This document shows positions 3,062 to 13,939 of a DNA stretch of 29,864 bases, piece by piece (the stretch's first letter is position 1; each line of letters opens with the position of its first letter). Location of the stretch: assembly GCF_000003605.2 (NCBI RefSeq), contig NW_003119928.1, positions 97,386 to 127,249 on the forward strand, read 5' to 3'. The stretch is from Saccoglossus kowalevskii (taxonomy: Eukaryota; Hemichordata; Enteropneusta; Harrimaniidae). The notes beneath the pieces were generated by a model. The model was not told the DNA's origin and searched no databases. It saw only the letters and a list, made by a program, of their open reading frames with translations. Both the position numbers and the translations under genes were made by a program.

Positions 3062-3121
3062 CCAAAACTACAAACATGGCGCCCTCGCAGGCCAAAACTA
3101 CAAACATGGCGCCCTCGCAGG
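3062..3121. repeat. 30-bp tandem duplication containing ATGGCGCC
   Basis: Two identical 30-base units (3062-3091 and 3092-3121) lie head to tail, each with CAAACATGGCGCCCTCGCAG. The sequence continues GCCAA into unique DNA. Because 30 is a multiple of three, the frame reading WRPRRP is repeated without a shift, but I see no gene around it. Perfect identity implies a recent event. Confidence 0.9.
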
Positions 3122-3844
3122 CCAACGGCATCAGTTTGGATCAAAGCAGAGGGCGCAACTAACGGGACCCTGTCATTCAGTGTGTAGTTGATGTTATATT
3201 TGTTGGGTCCGTCATATTTAGGGAGTTGTATCACATGAAATGAACAAATGCTCAATCAGTTCCACCCACATACCTACAACAGGCCTAAATTATTCAATTA
3301 TTCACACTGATTTAATTCAATGGATGACATCCTCTGAAGACCCCAAAACTAATGCGAGAGGGCGAAAAAAATGCTGCTAAAACCACAAGACTACGGAGCT
3401 GTTATTACTAATTGAACCGCAGTGTATCAAAAAACAACAAGTCTTTATTTGTAGGAGGTACATGTTGATGTACACATCTCGTACTGTATTACTGTCACAG
3501 GTATCATCACCTTTGATTTTGAAAAGGCAAGAGGATAAGGCAGATGTTAGCTTTGCCAAAGGCATGCACATCAACTCAATGATAAAGAAAAACTTACTGT
3601 GTTATATTGAAAAAAAATTAATTAAAAATGAACAATACGTTTGTCAACAGCAATCTGAAAATTAACTTCTTTGACATTCAAACTACAGCTTTTAAAGTGA
3701 CACTTCAGATACACAAATGCTCTAGAACTACTTCAACTATGTAACAAATTATAAGAGGCTCGATATTGAAAAAAATACACCAACAGAAAGTCAACAAAAA
3801 TTTGGATGCAGAAAATTATGTACATGTATCTTGATGAAAATTTG

Positions 3845-6723: not shown

Positions 6724-8289
6724 TCAACATTCCCAAAGCTTGCTTACCTGCCGGTTTGATCCGATCAACAATAGGGGAACGATGCTATGATCCATCACAC
6801 TATCTTTTACCAATATGATGATGTCTATGTAAATTTAAATCCAGTTCCATCAACGAGAAAGGCTGCATTTAACACATATATCATATGATATAATCTATGA
6901 TTGTTCACGTGAGACACTTATAAGAAAGATGGCTTTAGTGGTGCGTTTTTTGTGGAACTTTGCAAAGTTGTGTGGTTGATATTAGGCAAACAAATTGAAT
7001 TGTACACGCATTGTTAGTGGCACTACAATCATAATAATGAACACTTGGCAACTCGAAAGTAATCAATGTAATCCATCTGGTACGAATTGATTGTAAAATG
7101 GATAATACCAGACAGTGTTCTGTGTTCATTGTTTTTCTCAGTTGTTTGTATACTGCCCTCAGCAGTCGTGAGACCTGTCAGAGGCTGTTAATGAAGAGCT
7201 GAGCAAAAGGGCATGAAAATTAAATCTAGTCCACGGCATATACAGACACACATGAACATCGAAACAGGAACTTGGGTTCATTAATATATAAATAGTATGA
7301 ATGTCACTGTTCTTGTATTGGTTGATGCATTCGATGGTTATTAGAAAAGACAGTGAAAGCAAGTGAAAAAAGAAAAAAAAAGTAAATGAATTCAAACGTT
7401 AAGTGGTAAATCTCGTTTTATTAATCGGTGTTATTTTTCTAAATGCATTGTACATTACCAGACATGACTTCTAAGTGCAGTTGAATTGAGGGAAGGAAAA
7501 CATCAAACCGATCAAGATCCTCTAATTAGGATTTTATGTGAACGATTGTCACAGGTCCCACCTCACAAAAACTGCCATTAAAAATAATGATCTCGTAAGG
7601 TCTTTGCAGTGCAAGACAGTTCCAAATAAATATAACATAATATAACACAAAACTATTCCATAGACTCAAAATTAAAGGTAAATGTTTTGTGTGTGTGTGA
7701 GAAAAATACAAAAATAAAACCACTCCAGAGGAGAAAACATAACATATGTAAGTTAAGCGACTGTGTTTACTACATGATAACTACCGGTATAATGACCCTA
7801 ATTAGATACATCCAATTGGTAGCGACATTACTGAGTATAAGGCCCAGTAAATAGCTTCTTGGATGACAACTGTGGGACACATGGTCAACTTTAAACTTGA
7901 ATTGTATATGGTCAAAGACGAATAGCAAATAACAAATAATATATATGCATATTCTATATTATAAATTACAATGCAATTACATTTCATTTAAAACACTGTC
8001 CTCACAAAATACTGACTGACCTGTGAAGTCTCGCACAATAAACAACAAGGTGAACAATAGTTGGTATTTATTTTGTAAATGACCGCTGGTGGCGCCAATG
8101 TCTGAGATCACAACTGATATTCGTGTATTGTCTCACATTGACATTAGATGCAATACAATCAGCCTCAAGACAATAAATTCACTTGTAAGTTTTCAAAAAT
8201 CACCTGCTGTATTAACAAACATTGAATAAGTATACTTCGTGACGCGGGCCCAGCCGTACGGAATTAAATGATCTATGACCTAACAACAC
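6724..8289. other. Region downstream of the deiodinase gene
   Basis: No gene recognised. On the minus strand this follows the proposed poly(A) signal and would become 3' UTR only if a longer transcript exists. The minus strand has several AATAAA words (for example near 8066-8071 and 7417-7422), as expected in AT-rich DNA. A short GT microsatellite lies near 7688-7698. Confidence 0.35.
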
Positions 8290-8652: not shown

Positions 8653-8905
8653 TTATTGTTCTGTAAATCTACTATCCAACCACGTTCGTAGATGATCGGT
8701 GACATTCATATGCGGCATCTTCAATTGTTCAATCATTGTATCTCCGATGTATACCATCTTTCCGTTTTCGACAATAAAGGCACGATCTGGATGGGCGTGG
8801 AATGCTCTGTTGAAGCTATTTTCCATGCTGTCGACAGCCACAGAAATCTTCGTATCACTGGACATATCGAAAGTAAACAAGTCACCCGCTCTATTCACCA
8901 TAGCC
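8653..8905 (-). CDS. Dio: Deiodinase exon 5 (C-terminus, stop)
   Basis: The acceptor TACGTTTCAG ends at 8906. The first base completes the Arg272 codon and 83 residues follow to TAA at 8655-8653. It carries SVAVDSMENSFNRAF and PDRAFIVENGKMVYIG, corresponding to the family's V-D-x-M-x-N segment and the strand pair that closes the thioredoxin fold. The final 35 residues (IGDTMIEQLKMPHMN and onward, ending SRFTEQ) form a probable helix like the terminal one in other deiodinases. Confidence 0.9.
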
Positions 8906-11900
8906 CTGAAACGTACAAGTCGGAGTGGCATGTTTAACAGCGTGTATGTTTTAACGAAAGAGTTTTTGGACTGTGTGCTATTGATGTTTTACTTTTATTA
9001 ATATTGGCCAACATCGATGAACACAAAATAAATCCCACATTAAGTTTAGCCTCAGCAAGCGATCATTGGTGTCAGCTACGCGTAAACAACTGCCTGTCAT
9101 ATATCAGTAATATCTACACAGCATCAACCAATCTGTATAATCAAGGCCATGACTACTGGTACGAAAATAAATTCAAAAAAGAGACGTCTTTTAAATGTAT
9201 TGCCCTTAATGTGTTCCTTAGCAAATCGAAAAATGCAGCTCAGTGGTTTAACTAGAACGGGTATGTTGAACTCTAGTTTATTTGAACAAAAGTATGGTAC
9301 GTACAAATTAACCCCCCCCCCCAAATAAAATGGAATAAAAAACGCCGTCCAAAGGTAGTTCGGTATGTTTGGTTATTTCTATTTAAATGAATCAATCTGA
9401 TTGACATATATCCGAAATGAACATACCGGCGATCGTTCCGAGTTACTTACTGTTGCTCGCATACAATATATTTAAAAATCGTATTTACCGTGCACAATCA
9501 ATTCTGTCGTCCAAAACTTTATGTTGATTCATGAAGCTGAAATTCGTGCCCATTTTAAAACCATCACGAGGATGGGCCTCTACAAGGTACACAAACAGGA
9601 AGTCGACAGTCGACTTGTAGTCTGCAAACAGCTTGGACAGAGAACCGCCATCCACGATGGCCTGTACATCAGAAAGAGAAAAAAGATAGCATCAATGAAA
9701 CAAATACTTAATGTAGTAACAGAACATTTTCTAGAATGTTAATGCAAATGCTCAAAAATGGGCATATAAACAGGATCTAGGTTTCAAGATGCTACATTCA
9801 TGTTGACTATGGTATTTCGTTCATTTATTTCTACAATTTAATTCAACTTCATCTCAAAATACACATCCTTGATATACATGAAGAAGAGGTTAACTCCCAT
9901 GGCCATGACAACAACCCTTGTATAAGTTTGGCCAAGTTGAATGTACATTTTGCATATACTTAGTTAATATTCAAACTCAGGTTAGATTGAAAAGAACTTA
10001 TATCGTGAGAAATAAACTACTTGGCCATGATCCTTTGAGTGGAAAAAAACGTTGACCTTCCTGTTTAATACAACAAAGGCACATAGAAGTAGGGCGGGTG
10101 AAACGTGGACTACGTGCAGAAACTCTGTAGCCTTCACGCACCCTCAATTGACACGAGACAACACAGTGAGGTCACTACTCCTAGTACTTTATTCAAGCCA
10201 CATTTGTTTATTGCTTATTATTATTCCTTAGAACAATTGTAAGTTAGATGAAAGATCTGAACAATTTAATTATGTGGCATGTGCTCTCATGATATTCATG
10301 GTAATGCGAGTATGTGAAGAACAGAATATTAATTAAAAGTGATCATCCCAATATGTTCCTTTTATAAATTACTATTATATATATATAATACTCACTCGGA
10401 GTGGAGGTCAGCTAAACGATGATGCTATCACTACCATTGGTCTGTTCTTACGTAAGTTAAGACTGGAGAGTTGTCTCACTTCTTTGGTCTCCACGTCAAC
10501 AATCCCAACATCGGGGACTTTGTCTCCGGGCTGCAACTTCCCACTCTGCATCATTGACCGGAATTCATACATGAAATCAAGATGGCGTCTCACCTGTGAA
10601 GATGGTGAGTGTTAGCAAAAAATAGATATAGACATGTGCATCAGAATATTATACATAGTCCGTTACAATCATACCTCCAAATATAATTGGGGTAACCAGG
10701 AGGATATAATCATTGGTTTCATGAAACAATATCAAGTTTGGTTGGTTCCCCTCTCCCTTTTTCCAAAACTGAAAAAGTTATGATGTTGCGCAATTAATCA
10801 CATCCAGGATGACATACAAAGCGGTGTTTTATTCTTAGTATTCCTTTTAACATAAAGTTACTCGGCTAATGATTACCTCTGGGTCTTTTTCATATTTCTG
10901 TACCAACATTTCCATGGCGAATAGGCAAATTGGTGTAGCTTTAACGTCTGGAAATTCGGGACACATTTCTTTGAGAACACGGTTTGCTGTGTCTGACCAG
11001 ATCATCATCGTTTCAAGCATCACCGATGGGCTGCTTGGGTCAAGTTTGTCATACTGTCTTTGAACATGTTCAGAAAATGAAAGTTCACGATGTTTCTTGG
11101 CTATCTTCACAACAAGTTCTCTGTCATTCAAGAAATTCAATAGTTTTCCTGTGCAATTGATAGAAACAAAATATATGTTGGTCACAAAATCTTAACCGCA
11201 TTGGCCCAATCCTTGTATCCTTATTTTCCACTGGGCAATTTAATGTTTAATTTATTTTTAATTGTAAGTACTCTGTACAACAACAACAACAACAATGAAT
11301 TCAATTGCATGTTCATTGCTAGTAAGTCTACGCGAGAGAGTGTAATACTGATAGCATGTGCGTTGTGTAGACATTACACATTTGCTAGCTATACTAGTCT
11401 ACCAATGAATTTCTTGTATTTCTGTTAGGAGCAGCTGCTGGCGATGAGACACTGACTGCGCCCGCAATGCGGAATGGAATGTTATTAGACAGTTCCGAAT
11501 GAAATGAATTACGGCGGATTTGTAACATAGATACATCATTGGTAATTGTTTGCAGGCATCTTCACTCTCTCAGGATTGTACGAGTTGTATCAGTCATGAA
11601 GACAATCACTATCCATAGTTTCGAGTTGTCATACCCTGGGTATTTATTTCTAGCATTTCTAATGGCAGGTACGTAAGCGTACGATATCTTGATTATTCGC
11701 ATTAAGGGGACTTGGCATGCCACCGTTACCGATGGTAGTATCATGATTCCAGTTCATGTGTAACTCCTGGCACTCGAACATTGAAAATTAGAATAACTGT
11801 GTAGAACATTGTAGAACTCACAAAATATCCTTTCTACCTTAATGATCATTTACTCTTTCCTGTATATCAACAATATTTTTGTTTTTGGTAGACTTGTTTT

Positions 11901-13845
11901 TCTCCAAAGTGCCTGACCCCAGTGTTAAAAGGTGTAAACAGGCATAGATACGTCTGACGTCAGGGATAGTTATTGTTCTAGGTTGATCTAGACGGGCTCG
12001 TGTCGAGATCACTTGGCGGGACCTACTAGTATTCATTATCGCATACATAGCAACGATGCATCAGAAGAATGTCTGAGTCACAGCAAAACGCCAATGCATG
12101 ACGTCATTGTAAGTATTTCATTCAGGCCAGCCAACCACGCAGAGAGAAAGTATTGCAGACACCACGTGAGTTCGCATCGAGCAAGCTGATTGGCTCGCTG
12201 AGAACAACTATTTTTGCAAGTCGTGACAGAACGTGTTTGAAACTCTTCGAATCAACGAAAATGTTTCTCCTCTTCTTTGCCCAACACGGTTTGCAATAAA
12301 TCTTGAGTATTTAAAACACTACAATAACGGAGCGTTCAGCAATAGGCTAACATTTCTAACGAAATAACTGCCGCAACTATATTTGCCGCAGTTAAAATCA
12401 GCCGATATTATCAACTATAGCAGATATGCATGCAAAAAAGTATCGTTCAAAAATGGCTTTGTGTGTTCTTTTTTGCGGTATACTTGTATATAGGAACGCG
12501 ATTTAAAAATGTACTACACTGAAAACAAAATATATTCCTGTCATTCAAGGAAATAAAGTAGTGTCCGGTACTGGGTATAGTCACGACTATACTAAGAAGT
12601 AATACAAAAACAGGAAGTCTCGATGGCATAAGCTGATGAAATAGCATGTGGGGTATATCATTAGTCAGCATGATAACATCAGATGAGACGCGCCTACTTA
12701 GGGAATACGCCAGAATACGTGACAAATTTGTCTTTCCGCCCTTGAAATATGCTGGCACATTTGAGGTAATTCCTCTGGTTACGTCGCACTATAGCGCCGC
12801 CATTATATTGTATTTGAGAATTGCAACTTGAAAGACACAGGCTTTTTTTAACAAAAAGGATATCGCATGTAACTGATACTTATACTATGTTAGAATGAAA
12901 CGGAATTTGGTTGTGAACGATCATTACATACCCAATGGCGCAAACATTTTTAATTCAAATATACCCCAGCCTTTCCAAACTCTCCGCTTCTTTACAGCAC
13001 AGTAAGTAGTTGCCACAGAAAAAAATGCATCCAAACACTATTTTTTATTATTTAATACAAGTAGCCGTCAAATTGTTCAGTAAAACATGCTTGATTAGAA
13101 TTATTTCAATACTCAAATACACGCTGGAAGCCATTTGACATTTGTGTTTCTCTATGAAGGTGCGTATTGCGGGCCAATAATGAACAGTCATTTTAATTGT
13201 AGTCAGTGCTTGGGGTATTTCAACTTATGACTATAACAATTATGATATTCGAAGCTGATTCATTGTAACATGCATAAAGTGCTTTAATTACAGCACAAGC
13301 CGTACATTGGGTACTGCAGGCTCCATTGTTATATAAAGTTTAGTCAAAAGAGCAAATTGCATGCATCTGGAAATTTTGAATTTTGTCACGATTCTTGCAG
13401 ACAGGGTAGTATTTACATGCGAATTACGGGGTCATTTTTGCGCCAACTACTCGCATTGAAATACATTACACCATCTCACTAAAACGTGCAGACATGTCCG
13501 CATTTCAGACAACTAAAAAAATAGTTTAAACCTGGAAAATCATTTTTCAGCTACAAAACTTAACGCGAATATTTGAAATGTTGTACTGAATTGAGTTAAC
13601 AGTGAATACAAGGTAGTACAAAAAAGTTCCTAAAATAAAATTTACAGGAAAACTAAAAGAAATATATTCCTACCGTTCGCCATATTTTGCGTCATTGGCA
13701 TTGCCATTTTCCCAGACATCGGAATATTCCCTTCCATTTTCTTTTTCATCATCATCATCATCATCATCGGGGATAGGGAATCAGACCGGGAACAGACCCC
13801 CGGCTCTGTGCAAGGACCAGGACCTGTTAAAAGCTTCTGTGACAT
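8653..13845 (-). CDS. Dio: Iodothyronine deiodinase-like selenoprotein, 5 exons
   Basis: Deiodinases use a selenocysteine in a thioredoxin-like fold to remove iodine from thyroid hormones; homologues in invertebrates may act on related iodinated or other substrates. Joining 13845-13674, 11148-10877, 10593-10396, 9661-9489 and 8905-8653 gives 355 codons plus stop, with every junction GT/AG and in phase. Seen in the product: strand NRPMVVIASS leading to FS-TGA-PP, matching the family's S-x-T-Sec-P-P site (TGA is codon 210); FLFVYLVEAHPRDGF, matching the E-A-H-x-x-D-G-W block (Glu242, His244); a conserved histidine in NQHKVLDDR (His261); and a C-terminal block PDRAFIVENGKMVYIG. At 355 residues it is longer than vertebrate enzymes (roughly 250-300), the extra length being N-terminal, with no transmembrane helix. 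The resolving cysteine two residues before Sec in type 1 enzymes is Phe here. Substrate and location are not shown by sequence. Confidence 0.93.
9489..9661 (-). CDS. Dio: Deiodinase exon 4 (E-A-H block)
   Basis: The acceptor CTGATGTACAG ends at 9662 and the donor GTAAATAC begins at 9488; the exon leaves two bases of the Arg272 codon. It encodes residues 215-271: AIVDGGSLSKLFADY, FLFVYLVEAHPRDGF and FSFMNQHKVLDDRIDCA. The Glu-Ala-His and the later His in the position of the family's N-H-Q are retained, while the Trp of D-G-W is Phe. The antisense strand is also open here but has no independent features. Confidence 0.93.
9662..10395 (-). other. Deiodinase intron 3
   Basis: A 734-base intron between the Sec exon and exon 4, starting GTGAGTATT and ending TGATGTACAG. 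It contains an alternating AT stretch near 10375-10389 directly next to the donor. No other gene seen inside. Confidence 0.8.
10396..10593 (-). CDS. Dio: Deiodinase exon 3 with in-frame TGA (Sec210)
   Basis: The acceptor CTTCACAG ends at 10594 and the donor GTGAGTATT starts at 10395; both boundaries are phase 0. It encodes residues 149-214: VRRHLDFMYEFRSMM, then GKLQPGDKVPDVGIVDVE, then RKNRPMVVIASSFS, then TGA (10410-10408), then PPLR. Stopping at the TGA would remove the E-A-H block and the rest of the fold, while reading through gives the Sec-Pro-Pro of the family and lands on a strong donor five codons later. That is the main reason for calling the TGA selenocysteine. Confidence 0.93.
10594..10876 (-). 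other. Deiodinase intron 2
   Basis: A 283-base phase-0 intron from GTAATCATT to CTTCACAG. Nothing else is visible inside. Confidence 0.85.
10877..11148 (-). CDS. Dio: Deiodinase exon 2 (N-terminal helical region)
   Basis: The acceptor CAATTGCACAG ends at 11149 and the donor GTAATC begins at 10876. It encodes residues 58-148, including LLNFLNDRELVVKIAKKHR, LETMMIWSDTANRVLKEM and ICLFAMEMLVQKYEKDPE. The heptad-like spacing of L, I, V and M with charged residues suggests several amphipathic helices. It lacks a 20-residue hydrophobic run, so it does not look like the membrane anchor that vertebrate deiodinases carry before the catalytic fold. I do not recognise this domain. Confidence 0.85.
11149..13673 (-). 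other. Deiodinase intron 1
   Basis: A 2.5-kb intron from GTAGGAATA to CAATTGCACAG, in phase 1. It contains a CAA microsatellite (about 11279-11295), two exact TGACGTCA sites (11955-11962 and 12099-12106) and a CACGTG E-box near 12162. No other exon with good splice sites was seen on either strand. Confidence 0.75.
11955..12106. promoter_or_regulatory. Pair of exact CRE palindromes in intron 1
   Basis: TGACGTCA occurs at 11955-11962 and 12099-12106, 144 bases apart, with a CACGTG E-box about 60 bases further on. CREs bind CREB/ATF bZIP factors in animals. A cluster in a long first intron is a plausible enhancer, but only the motifs are seen. Confidence 0.35.
13674..13845 (-). CDS. Dio: Deiodinase exon 1 (Met-rich leader)
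   Basis: The ATG at 13845 opens 57 codons plus one base, ending AACG before GTAGGAATA; the split codon is completed by exon 2 as Gly58. The peptide starts MSQKLLTGPGPCTEPGVC, then has seven Met encoded by an uninterrupted repeat (CAT on the plus strand, 13747-13767), KKK, and a segment with MSGKMAMPMTQNM. Thirteen of residues 27-55 are Met. I chose this ATG because a TATA box lies about 90 bases upstream and there is no earlier in-frame evidence. No signal peptide or membrane helix is seen. Confidence 0.8.
13747..13767. repeat. (CAT)7 microsatellite in exon 1
   Basis: Seven perfect CAT units on the plus strand encode Met27-Met33 of the deiodinase-like protein on the minus strand. Triplet slippage would change Met number without shifting the frame. 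Confidence 0.95.
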
Positions 13846-13931: not shown

Positions 13932-13939
13932 CTTTTATA
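13932..13939 (-). promoter_or_regulatory. TATA box of the deiodinase gene
   Basis: The minus strand reads GAAGTATAAAAGAGGG, a consensus TATA box. A start about 30 bases downstream would lie near 13905 and give a 5' UTR of about 60 bases before the ATG at 13845, a normal arrangement. Confidence 0.7.

Follow-up and report, generated by a model that had tools for sequence, protein, structure and literature searches.

The stretch of Saccoglossus kowalevskii DNA analysed here (29,864 nt, contig NW_003119928.1, positions 97,386 to 127,249; hereafter the window) carries on its minus strand a five-exon gene that is interrupted by a single in-frame TGA. The gene, known here from genomic sequence, is very probably a member of the deiodinase family in which this TGA encodes selenocysteine (Sec). 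Its parts are as follows.

13674..13845, minus strand: exon 1, codons 1-57 plus 1 nt, with the ATG start; the N terminus is low-complexity and Met/Lys-rich
10877..11148, minus strand: exon 2, an extra N-terminal domain of ~90 amino acids (aa)
10396..10593, minus strand: exon 3, where the thioredoxin-like catalytic domain begins; carries the putative Sec codon
10408..10410, minus strand: TGA codon 210, the putative Sec codon
9489..9661, minus strand: exon 4, with E-A-H-P-R-D-G-F and Q-H (equivalents of DIO3 Glu200, His202 and His219)
8653..8905, minus strand: exon 5, encoding the C-terminal portion of the catalytic domain and ending in the stop codon TAA (8655-8653)
13933..13939, minus strand: TATAAAA, a possible TATA box, found by eye

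Gene structure and the in-frame TGA

The five exons join in phase (172+272+198+173+253 = 1068 nt) into 355 codons followed by TAA, with all GT/AG boundaries and phases intact and no frameshift. The only internal stop is the TGA at codon 210 (10410-10408), which is followed by CCT CCA CTC CGA and then by the donor GTGAGT. The original prediction, which had described five minus-strand exons joining in phase over 8653-13845 and a lone internal TGA followed by Pro-Pro and a strong donor, thus proved exact in its span and in these details. Upstream of the ATG at 13845 we noted, by eye, an in-frame TGA at 13896-13894, which, together with the TATAAAA at 13939-13933, suggests that coding begins in exon 1, with a small chance left for an unseen upstream exon.

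Homology to deiodinases

Homology searches were made with the product in which U was placed at the TGA. The protein matched the Pfam family T4_deiodinase (PF00837; E 3.2e-27, 95.8 bits against a cut-off of 27, residues 162-349) and the catalytic cores of DIO3 (PDB 4tr3; E 4.7e-15, residues 196-354) and DIO2 (PDB 9h48; E 1.2e-11), and both PDB alignments span the TGA. These matches bear out the proposed membership in the deiodinase family. Over the aligned stretches the protein is 32% identical to each of the two cores and shares with them the catalytic Sec, for which the crystallised chains have Cys, followed by P-P, the block E-A-H-P-x-D-G and a His before the next helix. The motifs had been expected to read S-x-T-Sec-P-P and E-A-H-x-x-D-G-W, and both hold except at one residue each: Sec-P-P is present but preceded by Ser rather than Thr (S-F-S-Sec-P-P, that is SxS-Sec where DIO3 and DIO2 have SxT-Sec), and E-A-H-P-R-D-G is present but ends in Phe rather than Trp.

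We then compared catalytic residues in an alignment (A4) of the window core with six paralog cores (described below) and the two PDB stretches, in which DIO3 numbers were counted along the printed sequence and the row of paralog C2222b has one residue too many at an exon join. The equivalents of DIO3 Sec170, Ser167, Tyr197, Glu200, His202, His219 and Arg225 are all kept in the window protein. Roles of the catalytic residues have been described for DIO3 (PMC7506546, as far as seen in that account), with Glu200, His202, His219 and Tyr197 assigned to proton relay or loop anchoring in the relevant parts of PMC7506546 and PMC11592359. Around the join of exons 4 and 5 the window protein is 11 residues longer than DIO3 and 8 longer than DIO2, and ~6 extra residues lie in the substrate-clamp loop. 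In the Arg275/Lys241 clamp region it reads L-K-M-P, against G-R-G-P and G-K-G-P, the Lys being read by eye across an indel.

Conservation of the TGA among paralogs

A search of the genome, which spans 572 Mb in 4830 contigs, gave 20 exon matches (E up to 0.001) at no fewer than ten deiodinase-like loci, the window gene included. We examined the other nine, which lie in the same genome as the window gene, as paralogs. The catalytic exon was located in eight of them, and in all eight the codon equivalent to codon 210 is TGA; a Cys form was found in none of these exons. The sites read SLS-U-PP (three loci), SMS-U-PP (one) and SWS-U-P[FM] (four). Just as in the window gene, U-P-x-x-[RS] is followed at once by a GT donor at every one of these loci, and the exon after it starts behind an AG acceptor. 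tblastn with two of the paralog catalytic-exon peptides gave no match, and the exons there were located by pattern. Homology that continues across the TGA, and the same TGA in 8/8 paralog exons, argue that the in-frame TGA is more than chance.

Two paralog loci are irregular. At C2921b we found the last exon and a selenocysteine insertion sequence (SECIS) element only. At C2222a, which has the TGA, the last exon located ends prematurely, with a SECIS 1.2 kb further on; this locus may be a decaying copy or may be mis-modelled.

Sec decoding in the genome

The genome contains a tRNA-Sec that scores 76.7 bits, above the Rfam cut-off, with anticodon TCA; since the same search matches 14/14 control genomes, and above the cut-off in 5, only above-cut-off matches were counted. 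Three Rfam SECIS matches in the genome are above the cut-off, and two of them follow, respectively, a piece ending in GCUG (locus L042), which we take from its motif to be the end of a thioredoxin reductase, and a glutathione peroxidase piece (L043). Pfam values at these loci were 4.2e-8 for a reductase piece, 5.3e-8 for GSHPx and only 0.034 for the GCUG piece itself. The tRNA-Sec, the thioredoxin reductase GCUG end with its SECIS and the glutathione peroxidase piece with its SECIS, along with weak SelD-like exons, together indicate that the organism decodes UGA as Sec, as had been proposed for the animal from the window alone.

The tRNA-Sec search also revealed an array on contig C1591 (11,244 bases; L039-L041), in which 10 copies above the Rfam cut-off lie mostly ~1.3 kb, and some 0.52 kb, apart. 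Compared with the lone copy on C4068, three of these copies show 3 or 4 base differences each. ARAGORN called 3 genes of the array in L040 and none in L039.

SECIS elements at the paralog loci

SECIS elements were sought with a script that requires UGAN, helix II, AA and NGAN, plus helix I. A first, stricter form of the scan recovered 2/3 of the control Rfam SECIS; it was afterwards loosened and then recovered 3/3. With the loosened scan, six of the nine paralog loci yielded 7 elements between them. From these 7 elements and the three Rfam-found SECIS we built a covariance model (R1), in which the window candidate described below was not included. The SECIS alignment used (A2) has its row S44 misaligned at the 3' arm; a MAFFT alignment (A3), which split the 3' arm, was dropped. 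R1 added two loci outside its own set, C4558 (42 bits, E 6.6e-8, ~820 nt past the stop) and C2222a (23.3 bits, E 0.0047), so that scan and model together place a clear SECIS downstream at 8/9 paralog loci. An Rfam search of six paralog loci (L029-L034) had returned no SECIS, although R1 subsequently picked out clear elements at five of the six. Paralog C2921a carries a pair of nearly identical SECIS spaced 247 nt apart (L032:3291-3247 and 3044-3000, minus strand).

The window gene's own SECIS candidate

In the 3' region of the window gene the loosened scan gave, as its best element, the site at 7553-7501.

7501..7553, minus strand: candidate SECIS core, ~1.1 kb past the stop, with a (G)UGAC ... 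UGAU quartet, an A-rich apical loop and an apical mini-stem
7473..7580, minus strand: candidate SECIS with basal helix I; minimum free energy -28.1 kcal/mol, z -1.86, 11/200 shuffles folding at least as well
7417..7422, minus strand: AATAAA, a possible poly(A) signal ~80 nt past the candidate, found by eye

The stretch 7580-7473 folds as one long hairpin with the expected internal loop. First-order random sequence totalling 8 Mb contained five sites as strong as this one, which corresponds to ~0.0008 expected in 1270 nt; the thresholds for this count, and for the count in real DNA given below, were fixed after the candidate was seen. A second SECIS-like site, at ~8161, was rejected, because a continuous stem competes with it and its folding is no better than that of shuffles (z -0.49).

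Sec or stop at codon 210

The reading of the TGA as Sec, which the original prediction had put forward, gains support from the TGA in 8/8 paralog exons, the SECIS at 8/9 loci, the tRNA-Sec and the other selenoprotein genes. A number of observations speak against it. Most concern the candidate SECIS: R1 gives it 12.2 bits (E 1.1, rank 4/22 on both window strands), Rfam returned no SECIS for either the complete window or the 3' region, and the stricter scan found none in the 3 kb past the gene, the looser settings having been chosen after the control miss. Scanning 239,728 nt of real DNA yields 7 rows that score at least as high as the candidate, or ~0.03 chance sites per 1.3 kb; these rows include the candidate itself and the C1606 SECIS, and two of the rest overlap. 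The candidate is of the GUGA type; in the survey, as far as its account goes, AUGA is found in nearly every SECIS of invertebrates other than sponges (PMC3473315); the same source describes GUGA as common in sponges and some algae. Two earlier AATAAA (8295-8290 and 8072-8067, by eye) could end the transcript before the candidate is reached. Among the paralogs, C1465 has the TGA and no convincing SECIS by scan or R1. Its R1 matches (14.0 and 13.7 bits) were rejected by eye for want of the expected AA and helix; they outscore the window candidate yet lack these features, so R1 alone is insufficient for weak cases.

The remaining points on this side lie outside the SECIS. SelD-like exons in the genome fell below the family cut-off (best E 5.6e-11) at a locus that is partly masked, and SepSecS gave no match in an exon-by-exon search, which can miss a many-exon gene and from which no conclusion was drawn. 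In alignment A4, DIO3 Thr169 is replaced by Ser, Trp207 by Phe and Tyr257 by His in the window protein, and the His219 equivalent is missing in three of the six aligned paralogs (C1606, C4558 and C2921a). Thr169Ser is reported, in the mutant data seen, to cut activity by only 60% (PMC7506546).

Taking both sides together, we regard the element at 7553-7501 as the most likely SECIS of the window gene: it is a plausible but weak candidate, somewhat more likely than not to be genuine. The weakness of this element is also what could favour a pseudogene or a truncated product, in which the TGA would be a real stop and the exons downstream would be decaying. Such a reading is highly improbable, as the single internal stop in 355 codons falls exactly at the catalytic codon, splice sites are intact without any frameshift, exons 4 and 5 retain catalytic residues and match solved deiodinases, and the same TGA recurs in all eight paralog catalytic exons found. 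Ordinary readthrough inserting Trp, Arg or Cys draws on the same uncertainty of the SECIS and has equally little to recommend it, given that the TGA stands where DIO2 and DIO3 have their catalytic Sec (replaced by Cys in the crystallised proteins), that 8/9 paralog loci have a SECIS and that the tRNA-Sec and other selenoprotein genes are present.

N-terminal region

DIO1-3 carry an N-terminal transmembrane region, according to the portion of PMC11592359 consulted. No N-terminal transmembrane helix was found in the 355-aa model, where the best 19-residue Kyte-Doolittle mean (1.17) lies at the catalytic strand; with no membrane anchor found, we infer that the protein is soluble. A pattern search detected a stretch similar to the exon 2 domain (24-27% identity) in five of the nine paralog loci. 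No Pfam family reached its cut-off with the exon 2 domain, and PDB matches to it did not go below E 0.13; matches of the N-terminal domain to PF02526 and TSR1 were dismissed as below cut-off or at E 0.13.

Proposed activity and substrate

If the gene is a Sec-encoding deiodinase, UGA codon 210 would be decoded as Sec under the direction of a SECIS in the 3' untranslated region (UTR), and the protein would fold as a thioredoxin-like core. As the nucleophile, the selenolate of Sec210 would strip a halogen off an aromatic substrate while Glu/His residues relay the proton as in DIO1-3, and a thiol system would then restore the enzyme. We infer this halogen-removal chemistry from DIO1-3. The original prediction had also suggested that the animal processes iodinated compounds; judging from the conserved catalytic residues, it may do so, and we lean towards thyroid-hormone-like iodinated aromatics as the most likely substrates.

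A selenoprotein of the deiodinase fold could also act on another substrate, for example as a soluble reductive dehalogenase or a peroxiredoxin-like enzyme; this alternative is compatible with Sec at codon 210 and competes on the substrate only. In its favour are the lack of a membrane anchor in the model, the extra N-terminal domain, the replacement of Trp207, Tyr257 and Thr169, the residues inserted in the substrate-clamp loop and where exon 5 begins, and a family of at least ten loci. The window protein, however, has the equivalents of Glu200, His202 and His219 and, close to the Arg275/Lys241 clamp position, what appears to be a basic residue ahead of Pro, and on balance we consider a different substrate less likely, although it is the strongest of the alternatives. 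Acorn worms are rich in bromo- and iodo-aromatics. A broader proposal, that at least nine Sec deiodinase-like genes, several of them sharing an unnamed N-terminal domain, are soluble selenium dehalogenases for bromo- and iodo-aromatics and not for thyroid hormone only, is more speculative still, and we give it little credence.

Thyroid-hormone-like iodinated aromatics thus remain our preferred substrates. An invertebrate with many Sec deiodinase-like genes would allow a test of whether deiodination, or a wider dehalogenation, preceded vertebrate thyroid signalling.

Comparison with known systems

Multi-copy Sec deiodinases of invertebrates are already known; what sets the window gene apart is its N-terminal part, and it belongs to a large family. 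One survey lists deiodinase selenoproteins in amphioxus (9 copies per genome), Capitella (12), Trichoplax (11) and Lottia (4), and no copies in the two further species tabulated (PMC3473315). As described in the same source, the members of this invertebrate family are, like those found here, multi-copy selenoproteins with a SECIS downstream of some, a likeness by description and not by alignment; the window candidate differs from that family in its GUGA. One amphioxus deiodinase gene in that description has two SECIS, as does paralog C2921a (PMC3473315). The mussel proteins McDx and McDy are described with a TGA at the catalytic centre and a SECIS in the 3' UTR, with a UGAN/KGAW core that the UGAC/UGAU of the window candidate also fits; at 258 and 242 aa they are shorter than the 355-aa window protein (PMC8481496, in the portion available). 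Likewise, several deiodinase-like loci (Sp-Dio) are described for the genome of the sea urchin, an invertebrate deuterostome (PMC9856734). Among the PMC papers searched, none joins deiodinase, Saccoglossus and selenoprotein. Gene predictors that treat TGA as a stop would truncate or split the window gene and its paralogs.

Other observations

Ten of the 36 open reading frames of at least 85 aa in the window were scanned, and none of these ten had a Pfam match. Positions 3062-3125 of the window hold a perfect 30-base tandem repeat of 2.1 copies. Elsewhere in the assembly, contig C4830 (17,037 bases; L053, L054) is mitochondrial, with a chordate/hemichordate-like gene order and a repeated stretch near one end; its genes were named from their reading frames. 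ND6 lies on the other strand, and COX1 is inverted with respect to its neighbours. This order, taken with the COX1 codon use given next, suggests a hemichordate. The COX1 reading frame has ATA where Ile is usual and AAA where Lys is usual.

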